This document shows positions 27,563 to 42,975 of a stretch of DNA of 64,000 nt, one piece after another; the first letter of the stretch is position 1; every line of letters begins with the position of its first letter. The notes under the pieces are model-generated. The model was not told where the DNA came from and ran no database searches. It saw only the letters and a program-made list of their open reading frames with translations. The stretch lies in contig NZ_JAGE01000001.1 of NCBI RefSeq assembly GCF_000526495.1, positions 1,702,501-1,766,500 of the forward strand, written 5' to 3'. Source of the DNA: Ruminiclostridium josui JCM 17888. GTDB taxonomy: Bacteria > Bacillota > Clostridia > Acetivibrionales > DSM-1351. Position numbers and translations under genes: made by a program.

Positions 27563-28021
27563 TTAAGTTTTTCTTAACTGCTTAAAGAATTCCGTTAATA
27601 TATTTCCACATTCCTCAAACATTAATCCATATACTACGTCAACTTTGTGATTAAATTGTGGAACTCTAAATAAATCTACCACTGACCCTGCTGCACCTGC
27701 TTTTTTGTCCATTGCTCCTATATAAAGTGTTTTTATTCTTGATTGAATAATAGCTCCTGCACACATTGGACACGGCTCCAGAGTAACGTACATGTCACAT
27801 CCTTCCAGTTTCCAGGTTCCAAGCGCCTTTGCCGCTTTTTTTATAGCTTCTATTTCAGCATGAGATGTAACATCCAGCTTTTCTTCCTTTTGATTTCGGC
27901 CCCTAGCAATTATCTTTCCATCCTTTACTATAATTGCTCCTACCGGTGATTCGCCATTTTCGTATGCCTTTTTTGCCTGATTGATTGCCTCAAGCATAAA
28001 CTGCTCGTTTCTGGTGTACAT
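27563..28021 (-). CDS. tadA: tRNA adenosine(34) deaminase
   Basis: Deaminates adenosine 34 to inosine in tRNA-Arg(ACG), needed to read CGN codons. 152 residues. The zinc site is HAEIEAI (His ligand and catalytic Glu) plus PCPMCAGAI (two Cys ligands). The usual TadA C-terminal helix with FFKQLRK is present. GGAGG precedes the ATG. It forms a two-gene unit with the thioredoxin-like gene. Confidence 0.93.
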   Translation of the reverse strand: MYTRNEQFMLEAINQAKKAYENGESPVGAIIVKDGKIIARGRNQKEEKLDVTSHAEIEAIKKAAKALGTWKLEGCDMYVTLEPCPMCAGAIIQSRIKTLYIGAMDKKAGAAGSVVDLFRVPQFNHKVDVVYGLMFEECGNILTEFFKQLRKT

Positions 28022-28183
28022 TAGGGTACCTCCATTATTTTTATTAATTATATTATAACTTCGAGAGTAAAAAATTAAATATTTTTATAAGTCAGTACCA
28101 TAATGAACTTTCAAACATATTATGTTATCAGAATGTCAGCTTTTTTAGCTGCGTTAGTATTTGTACAAAAAGGAGATGTATAC

Positions 28184-29215
28184 ATGAAAAAAGCTTTAAT
28201 TACAGGAATAACAGGGCAAGATGGCTCATATCTGTCTGAGTTTTTATTAAATAAAGGTTACGAGGTTCATGGTATTGTCAGAAGAAGCAGCAGCCTAAAT
28301 ACTCAGAGGATATCCCATCTTCTCGGTGATGAAACTGGGGAAAATTCACAGATTTCTCTTCACTTCGGGGATTTATCCGACTCCGGCAGTCTGAGTAAAC
28401 TTCTTTATAAGATAGAACCCGATGAAGTTTACAATCTGGGTGCTCAAAGTCATGTCAAAGTATCCTTTGATGTTCCCGAATATACCGGAGATGTGGATGC
28501 ATTGGGAACTGTACGACTTTTAGAAAGCATCAGGGAAATTAATCCGAGTATTAAGTTCTACCAGGCCTCCTCAAGTGAATTATTCGGTAAGGTAAGAGAA
28601 ACTCCTCAAAGTGAGACCACTCCCTTCTATCCGAGAAGTCCGTATGGTGTGTCTAAAATGTATGCATACTGGATTACAGTAAACTACCGTGATGCATATA
28701 ATCTTTTTGCCTGTAACGGAATCCTTTTTAACCATGAGTCTCCCAGACGCGGAGAAACTTTTGTAACCCGTAAGATAACCAAAGGTATAGCTGACATAGT
28801 ACATGGGAAAACGGACAAACTGTACCTTGGTAACATTGATGCAAAAAGAGATTGGGGTTTTGCAGGGGATTATGTAGAAGCAATGTGGCTCATGCTTCAG
28901 CAGGATGAACCCGACGATTACGTTATAGCAACAGGGGAAACTCATACTGTAAGAGAATTCTGTAATCTTGCATTTAAGCATGTAGGAATAACATTGGAGT
29001 GGCAAGGCTCCGGAGAACAAGAAAAGGCTGTAGACAGGGTTACGGGGAAAGAACTTATTAATATCAGCAGTAAATTCTTCCGGCCTACGGAAGTAGATTT
29101 GCTTTTGGGGAATCCATCTAAAGCCAAAAGTAAACTCAATTGGAAACAAAGAGTTTCTTTTGAAGAGCTTGTAAAAATGATGGTTGAAAGTGATTTAAAT
29201 GAGGAGATGAAATAA
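28184..29215 (+). CDS. gmd: GDP-mannose 4,6-dehydratase
   Basis: GDP-D-mannose to GDP-4-keto-6-deoxymannose, the first step to GDP-L-fucose. 343 residues, extended SDR. The N-terminal motif is [19 protein letters not shown]. The catalytic T/S-YxxxK elements are visible as [10 protein letters not shown] and [15 protein letters not shown]. The signature [17 protein letters not shown] is specific to Gmd. The start at 28184 has AAAGGAG before it; the frame is open for 27 more codons upstream without a site. It overlaps fcl by one base (TAATG). Confidence 0.95.
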
Positions 29216-30153
29216 TGAATAAGGATAGTAAAATTTATGTAGCCGGACACAGCGGAATGGTTGGCTCTGCAATCGTAAGGAGACTTCAAAAGAACGGATA
29301 TGAAAATATTTTATGTAAAAGTCATAAAGAACTTGACCTTACAAACCAAGCCTTAACAGAACAGTTCTTTATGGATGAAAAACCGGAATATGTTTTTATT
29401 GCAGCCGCAAAAGTTGGCGGAATACATGCCAACAACTCCTTTCCTGCTGATTTTATAATGGAAAATATGCTTATTGAGTGCAATGTAATAAAAAGTGCTT
29501 TTAAAAGCGGAGTCAAAAAGCTTCTGTTCTTAGGCAGTTCGTGTATATACCCTAAATTATGTCCCCAACCCATAAAGGAGGAATATTTGCTGACTGGTGA
29601 ACTTGAGCCTACTAATGAAGCATACGCTTTGGCAAAAATATCTGGAATAAAAATGTGCCAGTCCTATAATAAGCAATATGGAACACGGTTCATTTCCGCC
29701 ATGCCTGCAAGTCTTTATGGTGTTAATGACAGATTTGATATTAATAATTCCCATGTTATTCCTGCAATGATTATTAAATTTCACGAAGCAAAAGTGAAAA
29801 ATAAGCCTTATGTTGAATTGTGGGGTACAGGAAATCCTCTAAGGGAATTTCTTTACGTTGATGACATGGCAGATGCATGCTTGTATCTTATGCAGAATTA
29901 TGAAGGAAACGAATTTGTCAATATCGGTTCAGGCAAGGAAATCAGTATACGTGAGCTTGCCGAAACAATTAAGCGAGTAACGGAATACACCGGAGAACTT
30001 GTTTTTGATACAACCAAACCTGATGGCACACCCAGACGTGTATTGGACAACAGTAAGATACATAAGACAGGGTGGGTACCTCAAGTTGAAATTGAAGAAG
30101 GTCTTCGCAGGGAGTATGAATACTATCTTAATAATGTTTTATCAAAAAAATAA
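29215..30153 (+). CDS. fcl: GDP-L-fucose synthase
   Basis: Epimerase-reductase that turns GDP-4-keto-6-deoxymannose into GDP-L-fucose using NADPH. 312 residues. The N-terminal motif is [17 protein letters not shown]. The catalytic part is [11 protein letters not shown] with Y-A-L-A-K-I-S-G. The fcl-typical [12 protein letters not shown]-like segment ([12 protein letters not shown]) is present. Translation is coupled to gmd through a TAATG overlap. Its product is the expected donor for the fucosyltransferase-like genes on the opposite strand. Confidence 0.95.
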
Positions 30154-30215: not shown

Positions 30216-30692
30216 CTACCCTTTATTTTCTTCACTATTTTCCTCACTGAATAATTGCTTTAATACATCCAGTTGAGCATTTATCAATGCCTCGGACTTT
30301 GTTTTAAATGAATATAACTGCCCCTTTATTTCATCCAGCTTCCCTTTTGCCTTAATTACCTCAAGGTTTGCAGTTTCAATAATCCTTTGTGCACTTAGCT
30401 CTGCCTCATCAGTTATATTTTTTGCTTTCTCACATGCATTTGTTTTTATTTGTTCACTTGTATGCTGTGCAACTATTATAGAATGCTGTAATGATTCCTC
30501 AAGTACTTTATAGTGTTGAACGGTTTCATTAAGTAAATTTATTTTGCTTTTCATTTCCTCGTTTTCTTTAGCCATACTTATGTAGTCCTCACCCACTTGG
30601 GCAAGGATCGCATCAACCTGTTTTCTGCAATATCCGTTAATCAGGGACTTTTTTATGCAAAGACATTTAAAATCTTCGGGAGTATAATACAT
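30216..30692 (-). CDS. DivIVA-family coiled-coil protein
   Basis: 158 residues from the ATG giving MYYTPEDFKCLC, chosen because AGGAG lies 9 bp before it. The N-terminus matches the DivIVA membrane-targeting pattern (TPEDF, then YCRKQVDAILAQVGEDY). The rest is a long predicted coiled coil rich in Glu, Lys and Ala, with SEQIKTNACEKAKNI-type heptads. DivIVA proteins mark poles and septa and recruit wall machinery. This one is shorter at the C-terminus than the canonical cell-division protein, so it may be a paralogue. It is last in the minus-strand run after the kinase-like gene. Confidence 0.7.
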   Translation of the reverse strand: MYYTPEDFKCLCIKKSLINGYCRKQVDAILAQVGEDYISMAKENEEMKSKINLLNETVQHYKVLEESLQHSIIVAQHTSEQIKTNACEKAKNITDEAELSAQRIIETANLEVIKAKGKLDEIKGQLYSFKTKSEALINAQLDVLKQLFSEENSEENKG

Positions 30693-30791
30693 ATCGCTCA
30701 TCTCCTAAAATTACTCTCTCATCATAATATATTCCCGTTATGGCAATATATTCTCTATTTGAGTAACCATATGAATGAATAATGTATATTT

Positions 30792-31694
30792 TTACCACCT
30801 AAAACCAATAGGCATTATATCCCTTTCCCTGATATTAAACCTAAAGTTGGTAAAATCTCTGGTTGTAATCATATCTGCAATGTCTCTAACCCACAGTATA
30901 TCATTCAAAGTTGCATAAAACCTTGCCCTGTCAAGTAGACTTTCCAGACTAGGATAATACCTCGCCACACGTTTTAAAAAAGCTTCTCCCAGATTATCAA
31001 GAAGTATCCCTACATCATAGGCAGGGTCACCTAATCCCGAAAGGGCAAAACCTATTACACCCGTTAATTTCTTTAGTCTGCTGTCTATAAGCAAGTGATA
31101 AGCAGAAAGATCTCCGTGAATAAGAGAAGGTTCGTAGGACAAAAAATCATCATCATTTTCAACAGGTTTAAATACCTGTTTTATATATTCCTTTGTATAG
31201 TCGGAACAATATGGGAATACCTTTCTATATATTTCATCAACAAATTGCTCCCATCCATTTTGGTCTATAGGATTTTGAAATTCGCCGATTCCCATATTTT
31301 CAGCCTCTTCGACTGGTATTGTGTGAAGTGATTTAAGGAAAGTTCCTATCTGCTGTGCTAAAGTTTCCTGGTGTTTGCCATTTAATTGCAGCAGCAGGTT
31401 CCTTAATATAGGTTTTCCCTTTATTATGTTATATTTTACCATTTCTCTCCCAAGGGGTTCATGAGCAGGAACAAGGGGTTCTATACGGTTACGAATGAAA
31501 TTAGTAACCTTTGCCTCGTTATCTAAATAAGCAACACTCCAGTCGTATCTGGCAAATTTGAAAATGTAAGTGTCATTTATAATAATTACATCATTATATC
31601 TACCCTCATTTATCAGGTATTCCACTTTTGTTATATTAATCTGAGGGCATCTGCTTCTTATAAGCCCCATATACATATTCTTCTTTTCGTCCAT
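30792..31694 (-). CDS. Aminoglycoside-phosphotransferase-fold protein with altered catalytic residues
   Basis: 300 residues of the APH/choline-kinase fold. The ATP-site Lys appears in YIFKFAR. The Brenner motif is LIHGDLSAYHLLID, where the usual metal-binding Asn is Tyr. The DFG-equivalent is GVIGFALSGLGDPAYD, where the usual IDF Asp is Gly. The catalytic Asp of HGD remains. It may be inactive as a kinase or use another mode. It follows three fucosyltransferase-like genes by about 40 bp, so a role on a sugar or lipid-linked intermediate is possible. Not a likely antibiotic-resistance gene. Confidence 0.7.
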   Translation of the reverse strand: MDEKKNMYMGLIRSRCPQINITKVEYLINEGRYNDVIIINDTYIFKFARYDWSVAYLDNEAKVTNFIRNRIEPLVPAHEPLGREMVKYNIIKGKPILRNLLLQLNGKHQETLAQQIGTFLKSLHTIPVEEAENMGIGEFQNPIDQNGWEQFVDEIYRKVFPYCSDYTKEYIKQVFKPVENDDDFLSYEPSLIHGDLSAYHLLIDSRLKKLTGVIGFALSGLGDPAYDVGILLDNLGEAFLKRVARYYPSLESLLDRARFYATLNDILWVRDIADMITTRDFTNFRFNIRERDIMPIGFRW

Positions 31695-31732
31695 ACAGAT
31701 TTTTCACCACCCATAAGCTTTAAACCCTTTTA

Positions 31733-32692
31733 TCAATATAAAAGCTTTATATTTGATTCAGGCCAGTCCCTCAGTCTTAATACAGTATTTGAAAGACTTG
31801 AATATCCATTTCCAATAAAGAAATCACATTTTGAAGCTATATACGTATCCTTTATTATCTCTATTGTATCCTTTACAAGTTCAACACCTTTGTGTCTTTT
31901 GTTAGGATAACTAAGTAAAGCAGTGGGAATACGCTCTTTGAGAGGTACCTTTTTACTGTCGGTATATATCAGCATATCATTTTTGCTATATAACTTCTTG
32001 TATTGCTTAAATATAGTGTTAGAATCAGTTATTAAAAACAAGTGCCTTGTGTTGTACTTTACAATAAATTGCCATATATTCGGCTTGTAAAACTCATTCA
32101 AGTCATATAATTGAGCTACCTCGTTCACTATTGCCTTCTCTCTTACATGTACTCCCAAAATAGGTCTCTCATCCCTAAAATCTGGATTTGTATTTATAAA
32201 TTTTTTAATCTCTCTTTGTATTGGAGGCTGTAGCTTTATATAATTGTCAAACATGTACCTATATATTTGATACGGAGTTTTTCCGTATGACCAATGGTTG
32301 CTTCTTACATATGGTAAAAGTGCTCTCAATGGGTAATAAGTATCACTTACAACAACATTAGCATCACTTCTCATCATACCACTTAGCTCTCTATTTTCCA
32401 TTTTAAATCTGTCTGTATCTTCCGCCAGGACGTTTTCAAATCTCCATACCTTGGGATAGTAGGAATACTCCGGACGCACTACATCGTGGAAAGTATATGG
32501 GGATACAGGTTCAAAAAATGATTCAAATGAGTTTGTATCAACGGATTCACTGTAGAGGCTTTCCATTCCCCAATATACTACCGGAATCCGGTTTGTCAGT
32601 TCAGCGGCAAATATCTGACATATCACATGGTCCACATCTTTCCATATGCTGCCTCCCAGTGACTTTATCAGAAGAAATCTACTATTCGACAT
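31733..32692 (-). CDS. Fucosyltransferase-like protein 1 (GT23/NodZ-like), degenerate motif
   Basis: 319 residues from the ATG giving MSNSRFLLIKS, in line with its paralogues. The shared N-terminal block is FLLIKSLGGSIWKDVDHV followed by AAELTNRIPVVYWG. The conserved donor-binding motif expected as HxRGxDK reads VHVREKAIV here, lacking the acidic residue. The C-terminal block SKCDFFIGNGYSSLSNTVLRL is intact. No signal peptide or membrane helix. It overlaps the preceding paralogue by 11 bp. The fucosyltransferase call rests on the motif family and on gmd/fcl nearby; activity of this copy is doubtful. Confidence 0.6.
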   Translation of the reverse strand: MSNSRFLLIKSLGGSIWKDVDHVICQIFAAELTNRIPVVYWGMESLYSESVDTNSFESFFEPVSPYTFHDVVRPEYSYYPKVWRFENVLAEDTDRFKMENRELSGMMRSDANVVVSDTYYPLRALLPYVRSNHWSYGKTPYQIYRYMFDNYIKLQPPIQREIKKFINTNPDFRDERPILGVHVREKAIVNEVAQLYDLNEFYKPNIWQFIVKYNTRHLFLITDSNTIFKQYKKLYSKNDMLIYTDSKKVPLKERIPTALLSYPNKRHKGVELVKDTIEIIKDTYIASKCDFFIGNGYSSLSNTVLRLRDWPESNIKLLY

Positions 32693-33743
32693 ATGTGTTA
32701 ACACCTCCATAAAATTCCGGGTACTCCAACCTGTGATTTTTGCTTTCCAGCAGCCTTCTTTTCCCCTCTTCCTTTACTCTTCTTTTAGCAAGTTTTACTT
32801 CATTTTTTAAATCTCTGTAAAAAAGAATAATGTTTTGCTCCGGCCAGTCTTTCAGCCTTTTTATTGTATATGAAACATTGGAATATCCGTTTCCAATAAA
32901 GAAATTACATTTTGCTCCAAGATAGGTATCTTTGATAATCTCTATTCCCTTACGTCTTTTTGCTGAATAATCCTGCAGATGAGGTGCATCCTCTGTTGCA
33001 CTTAACGCTCCTCTTCTGCAGTCTGTATAAACCACTTTGTCTCCATACAGTTTTAAAAATTCTTTCAAAATGTCTTCACAATCCGTAAGTAGTAGTATTT
33101 TTCCTATATCATATCTGGCACTGAAGTTTTCTATTTCCTTATAGTATCGTTTGTTCAAGCGGCCAAGATTCTCAACTTCTCTTACTTTATCCCCGCCTCT
33201 AATGTGAACAGCTAGGGTTAGTCCTTTATCCTTTAGCTTTTCATCATAAAATTCCTGAATCTCCTGTTCAATATCAGGTTTAAGCTTAAGATATTTATCA
33301 AATAAGGTCCGGTAAATCTCATGTGCAGTCATACCGTAAGCCCAATGGCTCCTTGTTATATAATTAATCAAAGGCCTTATAAAATAGTGAACATCGCTTA
33401 CCAGCACATTTGCATCACTATTCATCATCTCACCAAGATTTCGGTATGTCCATGTTACCTTATCTAAATCCTCAATCATTACATTGTCATAATTCCATAC
33501 AGGAGGAAAATAAGTATAATTGTATTTTATTACGTCTTTTATACTATAGTCAGAGACCGGTTCAAAGTATAGATCAAAGGCATTTGTCTTGAATGATTCT
33601 GCATACAGACTATTCGGCCCCCAATATATAACAGGAATTCTGTTGGTAAGTTCAGCAGCTAGCAACTGACCCATTACGTGATCCACGTCTGACCAAAAGC
33701 CGCATCCCCATGACTTTATTAGCAAAAACCTGTCATTTGGCAT
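32682..33743 (-). CDS. Fucosyltransferase-like protein 2 (GT23/NodZ-like)
   Basis: 353 residues, starting MPNDRFLLIKSWG behind GAGGTG. It keeps the full nucleotide-sugar motif HIRGGDK (about residues 180-186), as in NodZ/FUT8-type alpha-1,6-fucosyltransferases (HxRxxDK). A C-terminal block NFFIGNGYSNVSYTIKRL follows, then a basic tail of about 40 residues that could bind membrane or partner. It overlaps both neighbours and is translated with them. Acceptor unknown. Confidence 0.68.
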   Translation of the reverse strand: MPNDRFLLIKSWGCGFWSDVDHVMGQLLAAELTNRIPVIYWGPNSLYAESFKTNAFDLYFEPVSDYSIKDVIKYNYTYFPPVWNYDNVMIEDLDKVTWTYRNLGEMMNSDANVLVSDVHYFIRPLINYITRSHWAYGMTAHEIYRTLFDKYLKLKPDIEQEIQEFYDEKLKDKGLTLAVHIRGGDKVREVENLGRLNKRYYKEIENFSARYDIGKILLLTDCEDILKEFLKLYGDKVVYTDCRRGALSATEDAPHLQDYSAKRRKGIEIIKDTYLGAKCNFFIGNGYSNVSYTIKRLKDWPEQNIILFYRDLKNEVKLAKRRVKEEGKRRLLESKNHRLEYPEFYGGVNTYVE

Positions 33744-34920
33744 TTAACTCACCTCTGCTCTCCTTATTCTTTTTGAACCTATTAAAAAGCTTTTTAACCC
33801 TTTGTGCTGTACGGGTAAAAATACTGGGTTTATCACTTTTTACCACAACCATTGCATTTATAGGGTACTTTCTCCTTTTAAATGTCCAGTACATCATTTT
33901 TACATTTTTATCTGCCCAATCCTTTATACGTGTAATTCCATGAGATACATTTGAAAAGTCATTCCCTATGAAAAAGTCACATTTTGCAGCAATATATGCA
34001 TCTTTAACAATTTCAATTCCTCTGCGCCTTACCACCATCGGATTTTCAATATGATATACGGGCTCGTCGTTTTTGATTCTTTTACAATTTGTATATACAA
34101 GCATGGAGCCGTATATGTTCTTATACTCATTCAATGTATCCTCGCAGTCGGTAAGTAAAAATATCTTCTTTATATTATATTTATTTATATATTTCTTTAT
34201 TTCCTTATGGTAGCCTCTGTTAGGCTCCTTAAACTTTCCCTTTGCAAATAGCCTATATAACTTTTTCCCCTTTTTTTGAGGTTTCTGTTTATATTTTTTA
34301 TAAATTTTATTCCAATACTGGTTTCCGTTTTTCTTAGAATCTCTGGTATCAAACACCATATCTTTTTCAGCTCTCCTGACGTGAACTGCAAGTACAGGAT
34401 GGTTACCTTTAAGCCACGAATTATAAAAACCCTGGACTTCCATGTTTATATCTGACCTCAGCTTTATATATTTATTGAATAAGTATCTGTATATTTGATG
34501 AGAACTCATTCCGTATGCTGGGTGATTCTTTTTTATAAACGGAATTAATTCATGTATGTTATAATATACATCTGCTACTACAACATTTTCTTGGCTGCTA
34601 AGTAAGTCCCCTATATTTCGGTAAATCCAAGTATCTTTATTCTGATCCTCAATAAATAGGTTTTCATAATTCCATATTGGCGGATAATATGTGTACTCAG
34701 GCTTTGCTACGTCAAAGATAGTGTAGTTGGAAACAGGTTCAAAGTACAATTCAAAGCCGTTAGTCAAGATATATCCATTGTGTAGACAATGTGTAGGCCA
34801 ATATACAACCGGTATCCTGTTGGTGAGTTCAGCTACAAGAAGTTGACCAAGCACATGATCTACATCCCCCCAAAGGATATAGCTCCAGCTCTTTATAAGC
34901 AGGAATCTGTCATTAGACAT
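33733..34920 (-). CDS. Fucosyltransferase-like protein 3, with a lysine-rich insert
   Basis: About 395 residues from the ATG giving MSNDRFLLIKSW, preceded by GAGGTG. It shares the N- and C-terminal blocks of its paralogues. The donor motif is VHVRRAEKDMV, an altered form of HxRGxDK. Right after it comes a Lys/Tyr-rich insert of about 60 residues (including YWNKIYKKYKQKPQKKGKK) not found in the others. The C-terminus is also basic. It is the first gene of the four-gene unit that ends with the kinase-like gene. Confidence 0.62.
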   Translation of the reverse strand: MSNDRFLLIKSWSYILWGDVDHVLGQLLVAELTNRIPVVYWPTHCLHNGYILTNGFELYFEPVSNYTIFDVAKPEYTYYPPIWNYENLFIEDQNKDTWIYRNIGDLLSSQENVVVADVYYNIHELIPFIKKNHPAYGMSSHQIYRYLFNKYIKLRSDINMEVQGFYNSWLKGNHPVLAVHVRRAEKDMVFDTRDSKKNGNQYWNKIYKKYKQKPQKKGKKLYRLFAKGKFKEPNRGYHKEIKKYINKYNIKKIFLLTDCEDTLNEYKNIYGSMLVYTNCKRIKNDEPVYHIENPMVVRRRGIEIVKDAYIAAKCDFFIGNDFSNVSHGITRIKDWADKNVKMMYWTFKRRKYPINAMVVVKSDKPSIFTRTAQRVKKLFNRFKKNKESRGELNAK

Positions 34921-35000
34921 TATTATTATCACCTCAATATAAATGCATTTCATGTTATTTTATGTAAGCCTATGCTGATATGTGATAATAAAAAATAAAA

Positions 35001-35025
35001 AACCCACGGGAAATCCCTGTGGGTT
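35001..35025 (-). terminator. Terminator after the subtilase gene
   Basis: AACCCACAGGG and CCCGTGGGTT pair around a 4-nt loop on the minus strand, followed by a long T-run. It lies 15 bp past the subtilase stop and splits the glycan locus into two transcripts. Confidence 0.8.
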
Positions 35026-35039
35026 CTTATTTAGAGCAA

Positions 35040-36221
35040 TTAGTTCTCTTCTTTTTCGAATAGCTCCAGTATGTAAGAATATAATTTTTCTAATTGATTA
35101 TAATTGAAGTCTCTAAAAAACCGAATTCCGTATGAGCTCTTTACTTCTAACTCATAAGTACTTTTTGCACATATTTCAATGTCGTAATCCACCGCCGTTA
35201 TATCCGACATTGGTATATTGTCACTTTTCTGATTGTCATATGAAAGAAGTAATATGTCAGGATCAAATATATCACTTATGTTATAGAAGCAATTATTCAA
35301 GGTGTATTTTTCCTTTAAAAAATCTCCCGCATATATGTAACCGTTACTGATATCAGGCTCTATTTTGTTTACAAAAACGCATAACGCATTATACCCATCT
35401 CTCCTGAATTTTTGTGTCAGCCCTTTTTCAAAATCATGGAGGCTATTATTGTTAAATAAAATGATGGGTATATCTATATCTTTACGTTTTTCCCATGAAT
35501 GTGAGTACTCTGCATTCTCTTTGTATGCTTCTTGTCTTAACACAGCTTTTATTTCATCGACTCCCATATTGGGACTATTCCTTAAAAGATTGTGCACATG
35601 GGCTGTAATCATTGGTGCCGCATAGCTGTTACATTCGTTTGTTACTTTACCCGTTCCGTCATACTTCTTGAGGCTATGTTTCGCGCATGCACATATATCT
35701 ATACCGTCCATTGGGTCTTTATTAAATATGTATTGTCCTTCTTCTAATAATCCATCCAAATCACACTTTACCCCAATAACCTTTTCAAATGATGCAGGAC
35801 ACGTAAAAATATTGCGGTTATTGCATGCGGCAACCACTATTACATTTTTCTCTAATGCATAATCTAATGCTTCCTTTACTTCACTAAAATCTCTGTAATC
35901 TATAGTCCCAAGACTCAAATTTACAATACGTATGTTATTATCTGCACACCATTTCAATCCGTGAATTAGCTGTGTTTTCACTCCTGTTCTTGAATTAGAA
36001 TCCAATATTTTTACACTGCCTATATCAGCTTCCGGAGAGTACTTTTTTATTATTGCAGCACAAGTTGTACCATGAGACGGAGAATGAGGGTCATAATCCA
36101 ACCTGTCACAAACAGCTAAATCACGAGTTATTTCCAGATTGTACGAAAGTCTTCCCATTTGATAGTACTTCTCGTTAACTCCGTCATCTATGATTGCAAT
36201 ATTAATAGGTACTGTATTCAT
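35040..36221 (-). CDS. Intracellular subtilase-family (S8) peptidase with an extra C-terminal domain
   Basis: 393 residues from the ATG giving MNTVPINIAIIDDG; AGGAGGG lies 11 bp upstream. The triad is visible: Asp12 in AIIDDGV, His50 in SHGTTCA, Ser199 in CNSYAAP. The oxyanion Asn lies in AACNNRN. The standard GTSxAxP is here NSYAAP. No signal peptide or propeptide is seen, so it should act inside the cell. The last ~140 residues, from IPIILFNN, form a separate alpha/beta-looking domain that I do not recognise. Intracellular S8 peptidases occur in some peptide-maturation clusters; here it sits in a glycan locus, so its target is unknown. Confidence 0.78.
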   Translation of the reverse strand: MNTVPINIAIIDDGVNEKYYQMGRLSYNLEITRDLAVCDRLDYDPHSPSHGTTCAAIIKKYSPEADIGSVKILDSNSRTGVKTQLIHGLKWCADNNIRIVNLSLGTIDYRDFSEVKEALDYALEKNVIVVAACNNRNIFTCPASFEKVIGVKCDLDGLLEEGQYIFNKDPMDGIDICACAKHSLKKYDGTGKVTNECNSYAAPMITAHVHNLLRNSPNMGVDEIKAVLRQEAYKENAEYSHSWEKRKDIDIPIILFNNNSLHDFEKGLTQKFRRDGYNALCVFVNKIEPDISNGYIYAGDFLKEKYTLNNCFYNISDIFDPDILLLSYDNQKSDNIPMSDITAVDYDIEICAKSTYELEVKSSYGIRFFRDFNYNQLEKLYSYILELFEKEEN

Positions 36222-36302
36222 CTTTGGCACTGCCCTCCTGCCTCATATCCTTTGTATACTTTTCCATTTGTTCAATTAAATTACATATAATATATCATTC
36301 AT

Positions 36303-37355
36303 TTATTTCATTTGCAAATTCCACTTATCTTTATTCCATTCAACAGTTCTTTCAAGCCCTTCTCTGAATGGCTTAAAAGATATAATCCCAAATTCGGATA
36401 AAATCTTACTTATATCAAGCTGTACTTTATCAGGAGATACCTTTATTTCTTCAATAGTCTGTTTTTTCTGCTGATTGTCAATGGTAAGAGTGCTTCCGGT
36501 AATAGAGCAAACTTCTTGGGCAAGTGTCTTTATACTGATACTGTCCTGGCCCCCCACGTTATACACAAAGTCCTTTCCATATGCAATAATGTGCATGAGC
36601 ATCAGGGCACAGTCTGCTATATAGCAGAAAGTTCTTACTTTACTTCCGTCATCCAGCATGGTAATATTTTTTTGCTCTAACCCTCGTCTTATAAACTGTC
36701 CAAGAACACGTTCATCGTCTCCTTTTACTCCCGGGCCGTAAGTCATGGATATTCTAGCGACTTTCGCGTCTACCCCTTCATAGTGCCTGTAAGCAAAGCA
36801 CAAAGTTTCCCCCATCCTTTTTGACTCTGAATATACGGCCCTTACATTTATCGGAGAGCAAAAGCCTGGGTAACTCTCGGGTGTAGGTATGTTGTCAATA
36901 TCCGGTTCACCGTAAATTTCTGAGGAGCTAAGGAATAGTATGACTGAATTATCTTTCTTTGCCCTTTGCAGAAGCTTTTCAGTAACAATAGTATTTAAAT
37001 GAATAGTATCCAGATAGTTTCTAAGGAATTTGCCGGGCTGTGCGTATGTTGCGCCATGTATGATATAATCAATCTTTACTTTTAACTTATCAATATCCAT
37101 ACTGTTTAGGTCTTCAGAATAGAAACTGTAATTTTGCTCAAATATATCAGTCAGGGCCTCGCAAGGCTTACTTCTGCTTACAGCATAAATTTTAATTTCA
37201 CCGCCCTTTAAAATGTTGGCAAGATGAAGCATATATATGATATAAGTTCCTATTAATCCATTTGCTCCTGTAATTAGTACTGTTTTGTTATAAAGAGGTG
37301 ATAAATCTATCTTTTTTAAATATTCCATGCAGTCTTCTTTAATATATTTATCCAA
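36303..37355 (-). CDS. Extended SDR, NAD-dependent epimerase/dehydratase
   Basis: Nucleotide-sugar-modifying enzyme, about 350 residues. The NAD motif is VLITGANGLIGTYII. The catalytic Ser and Tyr-Lys pair are in LSSSEIYG and YSESKRMGE. It resembles UDP-glucuronate decarboxylases and dTDP-glucose dehydratases more than Fcl. The likely start is TTG at 37355, 7 bp after AAAGGGGG. An in-frame ATG at 37373 overlapping the previous stop is the alternative. It follows the E1 beta gene directly, which suggests both act on one sugar. Confidence 0.8.
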   Translation of the reverse strand: MDKYIKEDCMEYLKKIDLSPLYNKTVLITGANGLIGTYIIYMLHLANILKGGEIKIYAVSRSKPCEALTDIFEQNYSFYSEDLNSMDIDKLKVKIDYIIHGATYAQPGKFLRNYLDTIHLNTIVTEKLLQRAKKDNSVILFLSSSEIYGEPDIDNIPTPESYPGFCSPINVRAVYSESKRMGETLCFAYRHYEGVDAKVARISMTYGPGVKGDDERVLGQFIRRGLEQKNITMLDDGSKVRTFCYIADCALMLMHIIAYGKDFVYNVGGQDSISIKTLAQEVCSITGSTLTIDNQQKKQTIEEIKVSPDKVQLDISKILSEFGIISFKPFREGLERTVEWNKDKWNLQMK

Positions 37356-37372
37356 AAGGAAGCCCCCTTTCA

Positions 37373-38413
37373 TTATTTCATTAATTCAACAGCCTTTTCA
37401 CATATAGTTTCAGAGTCAGGATAAAAGGCTTTTTCCTGTAAATCTCCGGCTGGAGTCGGTATATCCGGGCAACAAACTCTTACAACAGGCTTTTTCAGTA
37501 AATGAAAAGCTTTCTCAGCAACAAGAGCTGCAATTTCCGCAGCAACGCCGCCTGTCTTCCATCCGGTATCAGTTATTATAAGTTTGCCTGTCTTTGCAAG
37601 GGATTCAAATATAATGTCTTCGTCTATTGGTTTTATTGTCCTTAAATCTATAACCTCAGCTGATATGTTTTGAGCTTGAAGCTTCTCTGCTGCCTTTAAG
37701 GCTTCAATCAGCATATAGGACACTGCAACAATAGTAACGTCCTTCCCCGGTCTTCTTACAACGCCCTTTCCAAATGGTATAGAGTATAATGTGTCTGGGA
37801 CATTTCCCATTGTTTTGTAAAGCCATCTATGTTCAACAAATAGCACAGGATTATTGTCAATTATGCTTGAGATGAGTAATCCCTTGGCATCATAAGGTGT
37901 AGCTGGAGCTGCGATTTTCAGTCCCGGAGCATTCATAAGCATTCCTTGCAAACATTGTGAATGCTGGGCTCCTGATCCCCATCCTCGGGCACTAACTGTC
38001 CTTACCACCAAAGGAACACTTACCTTTCCTCCGGTCATATAGCTCCATTTCGCAGCGTGGTTTACCAGTTGATCCAAAGAGAGTAGTAAAAAATCCATTC
38101 TGCTGTGAACAAAAACAGGTCTTAATCCTGCCATTGCAGCTCCTGTGGCTATCCCCGTCAGGGAATTTTCTGCAATAGGCGTGTCAAAAACCCTGTCACG
38201 GCCATACTTTTCATGCAATCCCTTTGTAGTTCCAAAAACTCCGCCGGGGTCGTCTACGCCCTCTCCCATAATAAAAACCCTTGAATCCCTTGCAAGGGAT
38301 TGGTCCATTGCTTCATATAAAGCATCTTTATATGAAATCATTCTGCCATTTTGGGAATCATCAGTTATTATAAATTTATCCTGTTTCTCAACTTCAATTG
38401 TAGTCCAGGGCAT
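37373..38413 (-). CDS. TPP-dependent 2-oxoacid dehydrogenase E1, beta subunit
   Basis: 346 residues, transketolase-like pyrimidine and C-terminal domains. Visible are MGEGVDDPGGVFGTTKGL, FDTPIAENSLTGIATGAAMAG with the Glu that activates TPP, and the C-terminal DTGWKTGGVAAEI. An N-terminal extension of about 25 residues precedes the usual start. It pairs with the alpha gene just upstream. No E2 acyltransferase or E3 gene is nearby, so the pair may transfer an acyl or C2 unit from a 2-oxoacid onto a sugar rather than to CoA. Confidence 0.82.
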   Translation of the reverse strand: MPWTTIEVEKQDKFIITDDSQNGRMISYKDALYEAMDQSLARDSRVFIMGEGVDDPGGVFGTTKGLHEKYGRDRVFDTPIAENSLTGIATGAAMAGLRPVFVHSRMDFLLLSLDQLVNHAAKWSYMTGGKVSVPLVVRTVSARGWGSGAQHSQCLQGMLMNAPGLKIAAPATPYDAKGLLISSIIDNNPVLFVEHRWLYKTMGNVPDTLYSIPFGKGVVRRPGKDVTIVAVSYMLIEALKAAEKLQAQNISAEVIDLRTIKPIDEDIIFESLAKTGKLIITDTGWKTGGVAAEIAALVAEKAFHLLKKPVVRVCCPDIPTPAGDLQEKAFYPDSETICEKAVELMK

Positions 38414-38450
38414 GTAATATACCTCCTATCAGTGTACATAATGAACTGTA

Positions 38451-39416
38451 TTAATCCGCATAAACAAAATCAAGTAATTCTTCTGGCTGTGGTTTAGGAG
38501 AATTAACTGCAAATTCAAAAGCATCCTTTATCACTTTGTCTATTTCCTCATGTATGGATTTTTCTAACTGCTCATTAAGAATATTTCTACTTTCAAGATA
38601 GCTTTTATACCATTTGATTGGACACTTTGAAACCCAATAGTCATATTCCTCCTGGGGTCTGTATCCTACACCCAGGTCATCAACGGTGCCAATATGCCCC
38701 TTCCATCTGTAGCTTATACACTCCAGCAAAACAGGTCCCTCACCATTTCTGCACTTTTCAATAGCCTTTTCTGCATACTCGGAAACTTTAAGCACATCAT
38801 TCCCGTCTATCTGATATGAGGGAATTCCATATCCCTGAGCAATTTTACATATATTGTCTCCTGGCTGTCTAGCATTTTGATGGGAGTTTATAGCATAGAA
38901 ATTATTTTCACATACATATATAACCGGAAGCTTTTTAAGGGATGCGAAATTCAGGCTTTCATGAAAAGTTCCTTCGTCTGCCGCTCCATCTCCGAAAAAA
39001 ACAGCAGTAACCCTATCATTTTTTTGAATTTTGGATGCCAGAGCGGCTCCCGTTCCAAGAGGCAGGCTACCTCCGACTATGGCAGTGGAGCCAAAAATCC
39101 CTATTTCCGGAGCCATCAAGTGCATGGAGCCTCCTCTGCCGGAAGTACACCCTGTCTTACGAAGATACAATTCTGCTATCATTTTATTGATATCTCCACC
39201 TTTTGCTATATAGTGGGCATGACTCCTATGAGTTCCAAAAAGATAATCCTCCTTACGAAGGTGTATACAAACCCCTGCCGCAATTGCCTCCTGCCCTATG
39301 GAAAGATGAATAGGGGTTTTCATTTCGTCATTTTTATATTCTTCCTCGATTTTGCGTTCCACACTGCGTATGGTCTGCATTACTCTATACAACTCAATAA
39401 GTTTCTCATTTTCCAT
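38451..39416 (-). CDS. TPP-dependent 2-oxoacid dehydrogenase E1, alpha subunit
   Basis: 321 residues, closest in look to acetoin/pyruvate dehydrogenase alpha subunits. The TPP motif runs from GDGAADEGTFHESLNFA to CENNFYAI. The HRSHAHYIAKGG and GRGGSMHLMAPE segments form the active-site loops. AGGCTGG precedes the ATG. It is the first of the E1 alpha, E1 beta, SDR and subtilase run on the minus strand. The absence of E2 and E3 genes is the odd feature. Confidence 0.84.
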   Translation of the reverse strand: MENEKLIELYRVMQTIRSVERKIEEEYKNDEMKTPIHLSIGQEAIAAGVCIHLRKEDYLFGTHRSHAHYIAKGGDINKMIAELYLRKTGCTSGRGGSMHLMAPEIGIFGSTAIVGGSLPLGTGAALASKIQKNDRVTAVFFGDGAADEGTFHESLNFASLKKLPVIYVCENNFYAINSHQNARQPGDNICKIAQGYGIPSYQIDGNDVLKVSEYAEKAIEKCRNGEGPVLLECISYRWKGHIGTVDDLGVGYRPQEEYDYWVSKCPIKWYKSYLESRNILNEQLEKSIHEEIDKVIKDAFEFAVNSPKPQPEELLDFVYAD

Positions 39417-39464
39417 ATATACCAGCCTCCGAAATTCTCAATAATATACTTTTTATGAGCAATA

Positions 39465-40289
39465 TCAATAAAGCAGTGTTACATTCTGGTCTTGCCAGTC
39501 TTTTAGTTCGTATACTGCTCTGGATACGTTTGAGAATCCATTTCCTATAAAATAGTCACATTTTGCTGCAAGCCATGTGTCTTTTATAATTTCAACTCCT
39601 TTCAGCCTGTTGTCATCATATTTCTGAAAGTGAACTCCCCCTTGGTTTTTCAAAACCCTCTTACAGTCAGTATTAATTAACCTGTCACCATATATGTTTT
39701 TATACTCCTCCAATATGTCTCTGCAATCAGTCATAAGAAAAATATGTGCATTAGGTCTTTCTTTCAAATAATTTTCTATTTTCGCCGGGTAAAGCTTGTT
39801 CAGTTCATGTAGATGACTAACTTCCAATATCTTGTCACTTCCTCTTAAATGTACTGCAATAATTTCTTTGCCGGTCATATTTATGTCATAGAAATCATTT
39901 ATCTCCTTTTCAATTTCCGGTCGCAGCCGTATATACTTTTTAAGCATAATCCTGTAAATCTCTGTGGAATTCAATCCGAAATACGGACATGTATCATCCA
40001 TGCGGCATATAGTACCATCAATATCCATATATTTATTTGCTACCTCTACGTCCTCATTAATACCTATATTATCCATTAATTTATCCATGCCGTATTTGGA
40101 TACAGGGAAAAAGTACTGTTCAAACGCGTTTGAGGCTTCATCTGTGCTGTACATACTCTTGCTACCCCAATAAACAACAGGAATCCTTTGCGTTATTTCG
40201 GCATGCAATATATTTGAAAGCGTGTGGTGCATATCATACCAAAACCCATCCCCCGTTGTATTAATAAGTAAGAATTTATCCTTCTTCAA
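39465..40289 (-). CDS. Fucosyltransferase-like protein 4 (GT23/NodZ-like)
   Basis: About 274 residues, the shortest paralogue. The start chosen is TTG at 40289 (reading MKKDKFLLINTTG), because GAGGGGAGGG lies just before it. An in-frame ATG at 40340 would overlap the end of manC. The donor motif HLRGSDK is intact. The N-terminal block (AEITQRIPVVYWGSKSMY) and the C-terminal block (KCDYFIGNGFSNVSRAVYEL) match the other three. Together with copy 2 it is the most likely active enzyme. Confidence 0.66.
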   Translation of the reverse strand: MKKDKFLLINTTGDGFWYDMHHTLSNILHAEITQRIPVVYWGSKSMYSTDEASNAFEQYFFPVSKYGMDKLMDNIGINEDVEVANKYMDIDGTICRMDDTCPYFGLNSTEIYRIMLKKYIRLRPEIEKEINDFYDINMTGKEIIAVHLRGSDKILEVSHLHELNKLYPAKIENYLKERPNAHIFLMTDCRDILEEYKNIYGDRLINTDCKRVLKNQGGVHFQKYDDNRLKGVEIIKDTWLAAKCDYFIGNGFSNVSRAVYELKDWQDQNVTLLY

Positions 40290-40317
40290 ATTATCCCTCC
40301 CCTCACATACCAGGCTG

Positions 40318-41391
40318 TTACAGGAAACTTTTGAATTCACTCTTTTTAATTATTTCAACCAGATCTTTAACTTCCTGTGCTCTTCCTCTAGGACAAACAA
40401 TAACAGCCTCATTTGTACCTGCAACTATCATATTGTCTAACCCTATTGCTGCAATAAGTATTCCATCAGCATAAATTACAGAATTAGTAGTTCCCAGAGT
40501 TACATAGTTGCCCTTCCAATAGTTATTGTCCTTATCTTTTTGTAGAGTTCCCGACAATGTATCAATGCTTCCTATATCATCCCAGTCAAAGGAAGCCTTT
40601 ATCACATAAATGTCTTTACTTTTTTCCAGTACAGCATTGTCAAATGAAATATCCTGTATTTCATTATATGCAGTCGTTATATATGTGTTAAAATTTTCAC
40701 TTCCCTCATGCATAAGTGCATCTGCGATGGATGTATAATGTTTAGGTATATGTTGTCTGATTTGATTAATTATTGTCTTTGATGTTCCGGCCAGAATACC
40801 TCCGTTCCACAAGTATTCACCTGATTCAAACATTGAGCGTGCTGTATCTTCTTTTGGTTTTTCAGTAAACTTATTAACTTTAAAAATTTGTCCTTCTAAG
40901 TCTTTCTCCTTATCTATTTTTATATAGCCGTAAGCGGTAGAGGGATACGAAGGGTTAATTCCTATTACAACAAGGCTATCCTTTTCTTCCACTGCATTAA
41001 AGGCAAGATTTATTGTATCAGCATAACCCTGCCGGTCTTTGACATAACCGTCAGCCGGTACAAAACATAGTATTGATTCTCCCAATTTTTTATCAAGAAG
41101 CATTGTAGTATATGCAATACATGCAGCAGTATTCTTCTTCACGGGCTCCGAAATTATATTTGTAGGCGGAATTATATCCTTCACAACTTCTTTGGTCATT
41201 TCTACAAGACTTTGATTAGTTACAATAAAGCAATTGGATGGGGCAACGCTCTGGCATACGCGGTTAATTGTCTGAACCAGCATACATTCGCCGTCATCAA
41301 CAGATATAAACTGTTTAGGCTTCTTTTCTTTTGACAGAGGCCATAATCTTGTTCCTGAGCCACCTGCCATAATAACGACAAATTTCTCCAT
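40318..41391 (-). CDS. manC: Mannose-1-phosphate guanylyltransferase
   Basis: GTP + mannose 1-phosphate to GDP-mannose, the precursor used by gmd and fcl. About 357 residues, nucleotidyltransferase domain only, without the isomerase half found in fused forms. The signature is VIMAGGSGTRLWPLSKEKKPKQF; FTEKP and YLWNGGI are also visible. The start is the ATG giving MEKFVVIMAGG, 8 bp after GGAG. It heads the minus-strand glycan transcript. Confidence 0.93.
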   Translation of the reverse strand: MEKFVVIMAGGSGTRLWPLSKEKKPKQFISVDDGECMLVQTINRVCQSVAPSNCFIVTNQSLVEMTKEVVKDIIPPTNIISEPVKKNTAACIAYTTMLLDKKLGESILCFVPADGYVKDRQGYADTINLAFNAVEEKDSLVVIGINPSYPSTAYGYIKIDKEKDLEGQIFKVNKFTEKPKEDTARSMFESGEYLWNGGILAGTSKTIINQIRQHIPKHYTSIADALMHEGSENFNTYITTAYNEIQDISFDNAVLEKSKDIYVIKASFDWDDIGSIDTLSGTLQKDKDNNYWKGNYVTLGTTNSVIYADGILIAAIGLDNMIVAGTNEAVIVCPRGRAQEVKDLVEIIKKSEFKSFL

Positions 41392-41518
41392 CTCCAAAAC
41401 TCCAAAAATATTATTATAATCTATTTTATGTAAATTACTTGAATATGTTCATACGTATTTATACTGAATTTTAGGGAAATAATACAATTTACTAAATCTA
41501 TAATATGGAGCGGCATAA

Positions 41519-41860
41519 ATGCAGGGTAAATATATATTGCTAACAATTTTAAATTCAGTACTTATTGTCTTTGGACAAACACTGTGGAAATTGGGACTTA
41601 TTAAATCTCAGGAGTATAGTTTAAAACTGCTGCTAAGTCCTCTAATCATTGCCGGAGTCCTTACTTATGGCATATCTACGATTTTATGGCTATATATACT
41701 TTCAAAACTTCCGTTTTCCACCGCATATCCTTTAAATAGCATTGCCTATGCCCTTAGCCTATTTGTGGGCTTTTTCATATTTAAGGAATATATTGATATG
41801 CAAAAAATATTTGGTACTATACTCATTCTGGCAGGAGTATTTTATATAGCTAGAGGGTAA
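41519..41860 (+). CDS. Small EamA/SMR-type membrane protein (flippase-subunit-like)
   Basis: 113 residues with four hydrophobic helices, the small multidrug resistance/EamA half-domain layout. ILNSVLIVFGQTLWKLGL lies in helix 1. AYPLNSIAYALSLFVGFFIFKE resembles ArnE/ArnF-type subunits that flip undecaprenyl-phosphate sugars. It starts a three-gene plus-strand unit with a GT2 enzyme and a DUF2304 protein, which supports a lipid-linked sugar role. It faces away from manC. Confidence 0.7.
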   Translation: MQGKYILLTILNSVLIVFGQTLWKLGLIKSQEYSLKLLLSPLIIAGVLTYGISTILWLYILSKLPFSTAYPLNSIAYALSLFVGFFIFKEYIDMQKIFGTILILAGVFYIARG

Positions 41861-41896
41861 AATAGATTAGGATGAATACAGGCTTCGGAGGAATAA

Positions 41897-42607
41897 ATGA
41901 AAAGCATAATAATAATACCTGCTTACAATGAACAGGATAATATTCTTGATGTCATAAATGATATAGAGCAAAACGCTGCAGGATACCATTACGTGGTTAT
42001 AAATGACGGTTCATCAGACAAAACAGATTTAATGTTGCAGGAAAATCACATTCCCCATATAAATCTTCCATTTAACATAGGTATAGGTGGAGCCGTACAA
42101 ACTGGCTACAAATATGCATATGAAAAAGGCTACGACATTGTTGTACAGTTTGACGGTGACGGTCAGCACAAAGCATCTTACATCCCTGAAATGATAAATA
42201 TTCTAGAAAAAGGTACCGCAGACATGGTTATTGGCTCTAGATTTTTGGACAAAAGGGGGTACCAGTCTACTTTTATAAGAAGATTGGGAATAAAGTACTT
42301 TCGTTTTTTAATATGGCTATTATCAGGGTCAAGAGTGACGGACTCAACTTCTGGTTTCAGAGCCTGCAACAGAAAAATTATTGATTTGTTTTCAAAACGC
42401 TACCCACAGGACTATCCTGAGCCTGAATCCATAATGATTTTAAAACAGAATAAACTAAAAATAGTGGAAGTGCCTGTAGAAATGAGGAAAAGGACCCGAG
42501 GGAATTCTTCAATAAACAGGTCTCTATCCGTTTACTATATGGTCAAAGTTACATTGGCTATAATTTTAAGTCGCATGAGACCGCGTATAAGACGGTTTTC
42601 CAATTAA
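41897..42607 (+). CDS. GT2 glycosyltransferase, polyprenyl-phosphate sugar type
   Basis: 236 residues. The GT-A fold shows IIIPAYNEQDNILDVI, then NDGSSDKT, the metal-binding DGDGQH, and GSRFLDKRG. The pattern is that of dolichol/polyprenyl-phosphate mannosyl- or glucosyltransferases without the C-terminal membrane helices. It probably charges a lipid phosphate for the SMR-type protein to flip. CGGAGG precedes the ATG. Confidence 0.82.
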   Translation: MKSIIIIPAYNEQDNILDVINDIEQNAAGYHYVVINDGSSDKTDLMLQENHIPHINLPFNIGIGGAVQTGYKYAYEKGYDIVVQFDGDGQHKASYIPEMINILEKGTADMVIGSRFLDKRGYQSTFIRRLGIKYFRFLIWLLSGSRVTDSTSGFRACNRKIIDLFSKRYPQDYPEPESIMILKQNKLKIVEVPVEMRKRTRGNSSINRSLSVYYMVKVTLAIILSRMRPRIRRFSN

Positions 42608-42630
42608 ATTTTTTTACGGAAGGTAAAAAT

Positions 42631-42975
42631 ATGAACGTACGATTACAGATAAGTATTCTTCTTATAGGATTTATTTTGCTTACAACAATTCTTAAAATGG
42701 TTCAGAAAACCAAATTGGAACTCAAGTACAGTATTCTTTGGATTGTATCTTCTGTAATGTTTATAATAATTGCTGCTTTCCCTGCTATCACTGATTGGTT
42801 TGCAAGCCTTATAGGAATAATCGAACCTGCAAATGCAGTATTTCTTGTACTTATTTTATTTGAGCTAGGTATAAACCTTAACCTTACCATAACTATCTCC
42901 AAACAAACCAACAAGGTTAAAAATATGGCACAGTACATTGCCTTGATGGAGAACCAAAACCGTGAAAAAAGTTGA
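42631..42975 (+). CDS. DUF2304-family membrane protein
   Basis: 114 residues with about three hydrophobic helices and a charged C-terminal tail. The layout (ISILLIGFILL..., YSILWIVSSVMFIIIAAFPAI, then a helix before TKQTNKVKNM) matches DUF2304 proteins that are usually encoded next to GT2 polyprenyl-phosphate transferases. It may anchor the GT2 enzyme. It lies 23 bp after the GT2 gene with its own GGAAGG site. Confidence 0.75.
   Translation: MNVRLQISILLIGFILLTTILKMVQKTKLELKYSILWIVSSVMFIIIAAFPAITDWFASLIGIIEPANAVFLVLILFELGINLNLTITISKQTNKVKNMAQYIALMENQNREKS

Follow-up and report, generated by a model that had tools for sequence, protein, structure and literature searches.

The window analyzed here, a stretch of 64,000 nucleotides of Ruminiclostridium josui JCM 17888 (NCBI RefSeq assembly GCF_000526495.1, contig NZ_JAGE01000001.1, positions 1,702,501 to 1,766,500), contains a run of minus-strand genes between positions 30792 and 41391 that probably directs synthesis of a spore-surface glycan. 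In the direction of transcription these are manC, the glycosyltransferase (GT) gene GTd, genes for the alpha and beta subunits of an E1 enzyme of pyruvate dehydrogenase (PDH) type, a short-chain dehydrogenase/reductase (SDR) gene, an S8 subtilase gene, the further transferase genes GTc, GTb, and GTa, and a gene for an APH-like protein (Table 1). Just outside this interval, gmd and fcl lie on the plus strand and run towards a DivIVA-domain gene. The genes listed in the initial annotation, including manC, gmd, and fcl as a GDP-fucose route, are all present at the locus. The manC product scores 287 bits against TIGR01479, under the cut-off of that model, and gmd and fcl were named from sequence likeness. 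As read from the sequence, the likely starts are at 41391 (ATG) for manC, 40289 for GTd, 34920 for GTc, and 28184 for gmd.

TABLE 1 Genes and other features of the locus, in window positions
Feature	Position	Strand	Basis
Sigma-K-type promoter of manC unit, AAC-N-CATAAAATA	41422..41449	-	conserved in 20/24 loci
manC, mannose-1-phosphate guanylyltransferase	40318..41397	-	NTP_transferase and ManC beta-helix domains above cut-off
GTd, FUT8/NodZ-like transferase, HLRGSDK intact	39465..40340	-	FUT8_N_cat 45.6 bits, cut-off 27.6
E1 alpha, PDH type	38451..39416	-	E1_dh 264.6 bits
E1 beta, PDH type	37373..38413	-	domain and NCBIfam scans
Extended SDR, closest solved relative UDP-glucuronate decarboxylase	36303..37373	-	139 bits
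S8 subtilase with extra C-terminal region	35040..36230	-	Peptidase_S8 59 bits
Terminator-like hairpin 3' of S8	35001..35025	-	10-pair stem; T-rich tail read on minus strand
Sigma-K-type promoter of GT triplet, CACA-N16-CATAAAATA	34956..34984	-	orthologous-position conservation
GTc, O-FucT-like, altered HVRRAEKD and inserted loop	33733..34953	-	O-FucT 35.3 bits, cut-off 31.5
GTb, NodZ/FUT8-like, HIRGGDK intact	32682..33743	-	structure model matches NodZ
GTa, same fold family as GTb, HxRGxDK lost	31733..32710	-	Pfam scan and alignment
APH-fold protein, probable pseudokinase	30792..31694	-	Pfam scan and alignment
DivIVA-domain gene	30216..30701	-	PF05103 129 bits; conserved neighbor
fcl, GDP-L-fucose synthase	29215..30153	+	named by sequence likeness; adjoins gmd; conserved
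gmd, GDP-mannose 4,6-dehydratase	28103..29215	+	named by sequence likeness; conserved

Two units of the locus carry a conserved promoter element. Final counts used the pattern [AC]AC[ACT]-N15-17-CATANNNTA, based on the sigma-K consensus, which was scanned over 200 bases upstream of and 60 bases inside each gene in 32 loci, excluding genes with <35% identity or a too-short upstream region. The element precedes manC in 20 of 24 loci (0.18 expected by first-order resampling; missing in L048, L091, L104, and L105) and GTc in 20 of 28 (0.25 expected; missing in L045, L046, L095, L099, L100, L103, L104, and L105). L092 and L110 come from one genome, and one of them was dropped for the GTc count, which is 21/29 with the duplicate included; L025/L026 and L050/L051 are near-duplicates. 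Across the 32 loci none of 18 other genes was preceded by the element, and the reversed pattern gave 0 matches. The pattern began as [AC]AC[AC]-N13-17 and then allowed any base at position 4 before reaching its final form; T at that position was admitted after L049 and dpaA had been inspected, and 1 of the 20 manC matches (L049) depends on it. As a control we used dpaA, which excerpts of PMC3789822 describe as sigma-K dependent in Clostridioides difficile and Bacillus subtilis. The element precedes a dpaA-like gene in 9 of 10 Ruminiclostridium loci (the miss is G006, and one partial locus was excluded); these genes score 254 to 265 bits, short of the 319.65 that NCBIfam sets as cut-off, and the model matched weakly or strongly in 14/14 control genomes. 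A conserved sigma-K-type element like that before dpaA is found at the manC and GTc units, with gmd-fcl excepted, and we infer that sigma-K reads it at both.

A stricter pattern gave 4 matches against 3 for its control as a regulon finder; one match (L086, G000:C1:1772546, outside the window) precedes a 48-residue Asn-rich open reading frame (ORF), and another precedes GTc. Presence of the sigma-K family was uninformative, since 38 of 40 relatives match, some through what read as sigma-E-like paralogues. Most of the Ruminiclostridium loci viewed have the near-palindrome AACATATTATGTT conserved upstream of gmd (window 28000-28184); for the conserved block there, a sigma-E reading was dropped by eye on account of its spacing.

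The gene beyond gmd points to the spore surface as well. In all six carriers of the transferases from other genera (among the 40 relatives), the sole BclA_C match lies just beyond gmd, above cut-off in 5/6; Pfam scans of two such proteins placed BclA_C above cut-off in both and CBM96 in one. A BclA_C match of 42 bits also adjoins gmd in G006, and across the 40 relatives BclA_C was matched in 12 of 17 GT carriers and 4 of 23 others. On the strength of the sigma-K-type elements and this linked gene, the setting of the locus is likely the spore rather than a scaffoldin. We thus favor, at a probability of roughly 0.7, a late-sporulation locus through which the mother cell would make a spore-surface glycan from fucose-type sugars. 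Scaffoldin glycosylation and a glycosylated natural product, both offered in the initial annotation, are for the same reasons not supported.

If the locus instead made a vegetative cell-surface glycan or glycosylated a cellulosomal scaffoldin, the near absence of the element at gmd (1/24 loci) and fcl (0/25) would be expected, and the EmrE-like, GT2, and DUF2304-like genes that diverge from manC at window positions 41519-42975, and likewise in L021-L023 (names by eye), would find a place. We consider this unlikely, however, as both transferase-bearing units carry the sigma-K-type element and neither a flippase nor a polymerase was seen within the locus. The clostridia and Paenibacillus that have the locus also probably include species with and without cellulosomes.

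Several observations nonetheless weigh against a sporulation locus. The counts at gmd and fcl give no support to sigma-K control of the GDP-fucose supply, and neither Paenibacillus locus has the element before manC or GTc. The R. josui genome gave no BclA_C match in a profile search, and BclA_C genes lacked a sigma-K-type element within 400 bases upstream in 5/5 tested. All 9 dpaA matches have T at position 4 and were counted only after that position was widened, and sigma-E and sigma-K have similar -10 elements and differ at -35 (excerpts of PMC3789822). As a genome-wide regulon finder the pattern was rejected, with 135 matches versus 136 for the reversed pattern, and conservation at orthologous positions was used instead. 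The weakest links are the acceptor, the missing gmd-fcl element, and the E1 chemistry. E1 pairs occur widely in the phylum, and in 0 of 29 phylum loci did the flanks of ~1.5 kb hold an ORF with this SDR as its best match.

The gene set recurs in other genomes. A profile of the transferases matched 17 of the 40 relatives, comprising 11/11 genomes of the genus and six of other genera, and 8 of 291 genomes in a sample of the class, six of which are R. josui and its genus; the nearest named GTb, from R. papyrosolvens, is 96% identical. The order manC-GTd-E1a-E1b-SDR-GTc-GTb-GTa-APH-DivIVA//fcl-gmd is kept in G012 (with an additional ORF between fcl and gmd), G015, G018, G020, and G031, and metagenome-assembled genomes (MAGs) have the same order with variations. 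No GTd was called in G003 or G006 and no APH-like gene in G002 or G006; the locus is split in G001 and G008, and the contig ends inside it in G010 and G028. Insertions in G003 (R. sufflavum) and G006 comprise a CBM96/DUF6385-type protein (assigned by Pfam for R. sufflavum) as well as oxidoreductase-, acyltransferase-, and DegT-type aminotransferase-like genes (by eye). In Paenibacillus zanthoxyli and P. forsythiae the locus consists of gmd-fcl-manC-GTc-GTb-GTa and lacks E1, SDR, GTd, APH, and S8. This core indicates that the GT triplet accompanies the supply of GDP-fucose, with E1/SDR/GTd resembling a module added to it. The expected tie between the transferases and a GDP-fucose route within a recurring gene set was thus borne out across Ruminiclostridium and other clostridia, and for part of the set in Paenibacillus. 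In P. zanthoxyli (L104, 12210-14992), genes resembling by eye an RpiR-type regulator, NagB, and NagA lie 3' of GTa.

The four TRANSFERASES GTa-GTd share the blocks FLLIK..W.D and AE.T.RIPVVYW, as alignment confirmed; the other three are 50, 45, and 38% identical to GTa. An HxRGxDK-like motif had been ascribed to all four, but of these only GTb, with HIRGGDK, and GTd, with HLRGSDK, keep it intact. In GTc it reads HVRRAEKD and an inserted loop is present, and GTa has HVREKAI in place of the motif, with its Arg replaced by Lys in GTa of R. cellobioparum (G001) and R. hungatei (G004). The HxRxxDK motif functions in donor binding. When a profile of 28 family members was compared with the Protein Data Bank, NodZ scored best (E = 8e-12), followed by FUT8 (4e-7), POFUT1 (2.5e-4), and POFUT2 (1.3e-3). 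Structure prediction, which among the four paralogues covers GTb, gave a model (mean predicted local distance difference test score [pLDDT] 83.6) whose best match was also NodZ (TM 0.67-0.71 by target length), with FUT8, POFUT2, and plant FUT1 next. The model assigns GTb to the GT23/O-FucT superfamily fold (NodZ/FUT8/POFUT), and profile search and model alike uphold the proposed NodZ/FUT8-type identity, with no placement outside fucosyltransferase folds. Curated Pfam cut-offs were passed by GTd (FUT8_N_cat) and GTc (O-FucT); GTa and GTb fell under them. A PF05830 search found no match in the R. josui genome and none in the controls, whereas hmmscan gave weak NodZ matches.

In a 28-row tree, the rows of GTa, GTc, and GTd were each split from the rest by a supported branch (100/100, 99/96, and 99/97, respectively). 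The 13 GTb-labeled rows did not form one branch: 2 of them, gammaproteobacterial, grouped with GTd, and the 2 from Paenibacillus lay outside the nine clostridial ones. Such GT relatives grouping with GTd, at 37-38%, are those of the gammaproteobacterial MAG loci L107 and L108; by eye, the preceding gene in L107 resembles one for a TPR protein. In the R. papyrosolvens group, GTd, including that of the window, lacks ~37 residues present in R. hungatei and other families. This internal gap, and the genomes without a called GTd, may reflect relaxed constraint.

Use of GDP-mannose or a branched GDP-sugar by these transferases, in place of GDP-fucose, seems doubtful. The fold match is distant, curated cut-offs were passed by only 2/4, and the donor motifs of GTa and GTc are altered; the best matches, however, are all fucosyltransferases, and fcl is retained beside the GT triplet, Paenibacillus included.

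Both E1 subunits are PDH-type by family scans, E1 beta scoring 338.6 bits, above the cut-off of 321 of an NCBIfam PDH subfamily. The description of the pair as orphan is apt: the R. josui genome has no match to the E2 acyltransferase family (PF00198), which was matched in 10/14 control genomes. Of the 11 genus genomes, 10 likewise gave no match; the exception, G003, has its match inside a 2392-residue frame. The E1a-E1b-SDR order is kept across families; of the interleaved genes first taken as one set, S8 falls outside the core. The closest solved relatives of the SDR are UDP-glucuronate decarboxylases, and its Ser-Glu (151-152), Tyr181, Lys185, and Arg247, which we take to be the catalytic residues, are invariant in 12/12 orthologues. 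An E1-like pair, an SDR, and nucleotide-sugar genes thus occur together, as in two-carbon-branched sugar pathways. In everninomicin biosynthesis, a UXS-type (UDP-glucuronate decarboxylase-type) enzyme makes a 4-keto pentose that a PDH-like pair is proposed to acetylate (excerpts of PMC10338323), and a similar proposal exists for an E1-type pair in paulomycin (excerpts of PMC4802897). We favor addition of a two-carbon branch to a sugar by the E1 pair, though with odds that are about even.

The pair could also feed a different reaction (to acyloin, acetate, or another acceptor) with no branched sugar formed and the SDR acting on a different sugar, which we rate as slightly short of an even chance. 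The subfamily score of E1 beta would fit this, as would the wide occurrence of E1 pairs and the 0/29 count given above; one of those 29 phylum loci has an fcl-like ORF in its flank. Contexts on plasmids point both ways. E1 beta was matched in 694 plasmid records, and of three neighborhoods opened, two are sugar clusters: on a Solidesulfovibrio plasmid (53.7%), the neighbors of E1 beta are E1 alpha and genes for a nucleotidyltransferase, an aminotransferase, and a GDP-L-fucose synthase, and an Azospirillum plasmid has E1 beta in a sugar cluster, whereas the context in Streptomyces griseofuscus is of another kind. Against a non-branching role stand these two sugar clusters, the missing E2, and the conserved E1a-E1b-SDR order.

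The S8 subtilase has an invariant Asp, His53, and Ser202 in 12/12 relatives and a history that appears separate from the glycan genes. It was not seen in the glycan operon outside Ruminiclostridium, nor in 4 of 11 genus genomes (G003, G004, G006, and G010), where the closest S8 instead lies beside or within ~3 kb of a gene matching TIGR04066. In G035 and G006, relatives of S8 lie next to genes for CcpM and TIGR04066, each above cut-off, and over the catalytic domain the window S8 shares 54-56% identity with the S8 proteins that neighbor TIGR04066 in G006 and G004. By these absences and neighbors, S8 groups with proteases of ribosomally synthesized and posttranslationally modified peptide (RiPP) systems and is probably a hitchhiker outside the glycan pathway. 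TIGR04066 occurs in 11/11 genus genomes, with six matches above cut-off in R. josui (G000), all away from S8. In G000, G002, G005, G007, and G009, the sole S8 match of >35% identity is that of the glycan operon and TIGR04066 lies elsewhere; in G001 and G008, where the locus is split, TIGR04066 lies between its two halves at a distance from S8 of ~8 and ~11 kb, respectively, accompanied in G001 by a radical-SAM gene and a Cys-rich peptide (by eye). Among the 11 genus genomes, S8 beside TIGR04066 and a single S8 in the glycan operon look like complementary arrangements. A RiPP insertion would have left S8 behind in the operon, from which it may act in trans on TIGR04066-linked peptides. The subtilase scored 98 bits against the QhpE model NF049966, missing the cut-off of 165, and a structure model from two sequences (mean pLDDT 44.8) was not used.

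Such neighbors could suggest that the product of the whole locus is a glyco-RiPP or another glycosylated natural product, for which S8 would be the leader peptidase. CcpM and TIGR04066 genes beside the S8 relatives, and the peptide-related genes in G001, are consistent with this, but the operon occurs without S8 in the four genus genomes above and in loci outside Ruminiclostridium, and the glycan genes are retained without RiPP genes; we therefore regard it as very improbable. Outside the window, R. josui has a sigK gene split into two parts that lie ~16.4 kb from each other (L172, G000:C1:3338635-3355696); the stretch between them has a serine recombinase and genes above the SagB, SagC, and SagD cut-offs, a thiazole/oxazole-modified microcin (TOMM)-type peptide cluster.

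Aligned to APH(2'') structures, the APH-like protein of the window keeps HGD and has IGF where the structures have IDF. Among its orthologues the IDF Asp is missing in 8/10 and the HGD Asp also in 4/10, although both motifs look intact in R. cellobioparum and R. hungatei. Given IGF for IDF and these losses, the window protein is probably a pseudokinase, and a structural or regulatory role is likelier than catalysis. The CotS family was absent for this gene among the matches listed (25 of 27 NCBIfam families).

For a spore-surface glycan locus, the following mechanism can be envisaged. The two sigma-K-type promoters would drive expression in the mother cell late in sporulation, and ManC, Gmd, and Fcl would provide GDP-mannose and GDP-L-fucose. 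GTb and GTc, plus GTd where present, would transfer sugars in the cytosol onto spore-surface material, with GTa as a partner protein or altered transferase. The UXS-like SDR would produce or reduce a 4-keto sugar, and the E1 pair would decarboxylate pyruvate and place the two-carbon unit onto a 4-keto nucleotide sugar. Assembly of coat and exosporium proteins takes place in the cytoplasm of the mother cell, so lipid-linked export would be unnecessary. Fucose as the donor, the acceptor, and the two-carbon branching step are all our suppositions here. More specifically, POFUT/FUT8-fold enzymes could carry out cytosolic protein O-fucosylation under sigma-K, decorating spore-surface proteins (BclA_C proteins in some relatives) with an oligosaccharide that contains fucose and a two-carbon-branched sugar produced by the E2-less E1, although this version is tentative and, in our estimate, unlikely.

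Literature searches found no publication that describes a locus of this kind in Ruminiclostridium. It is a compact, conserved, and testable set that joins a GDP-fucose route to four related transferases and an E1 pair, the chemistry of which is so far a proposal in work on antibiotic sugars (excerpts of PMC10338323 and PMC4802897). It could reveal the job of a stand-alone PDH-type E1 in a genome without E2 and how a RiPP protease enters an unrelated operon.

Parts of the locus resemble known systems. NodZ, the rhizobial nodulation fucosyltransferase of GT23, is the closest solved relative of the paralogue family by profile and of GTb by fold, but identity is ~20-22%, and the locus has four paralogues, of which two show altered donor motifs. 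In everninomicin (EvdS6 with EvdU5/EvdS3) and paulomycin (Plm8/Plm9) biosynthesis, a PDH-E1-like pair and a UXS-type SDR are also combined, with proposed acetyl branching; those, however, are antibiotic sugars, and branching is a proposal there too (excerpts of PMC10338323 and PMC4802897). In clostridial CcpM/TIGR04066 RiPP systems S8 lies beside TIGR04066, whereas the window S8 lies inside a glycan operon. The BclA_C domain of the exosporium glycoprotein BclA recurs in the gene beyond gmd of related genomes, but had no match in the R. josui genome itself. The B. subtilis sps genes (spsI-L and spsM) are a sigma-K-controlled route for 6-deoxysugar synthesis at the spore surface, where the polysaccharide influences dispersal in water and adhesion (excerpts of PMC4191935). 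By its promoters and neighbors, the R. josui locus appears to be a spore-surface glycan locus of this known kind with a different enzyme set: sps makes rhamnose, whereas here a GDP-mannose/fucose route is joined by four NodZ/FUT8-fold transferases and an E1-SDR module.

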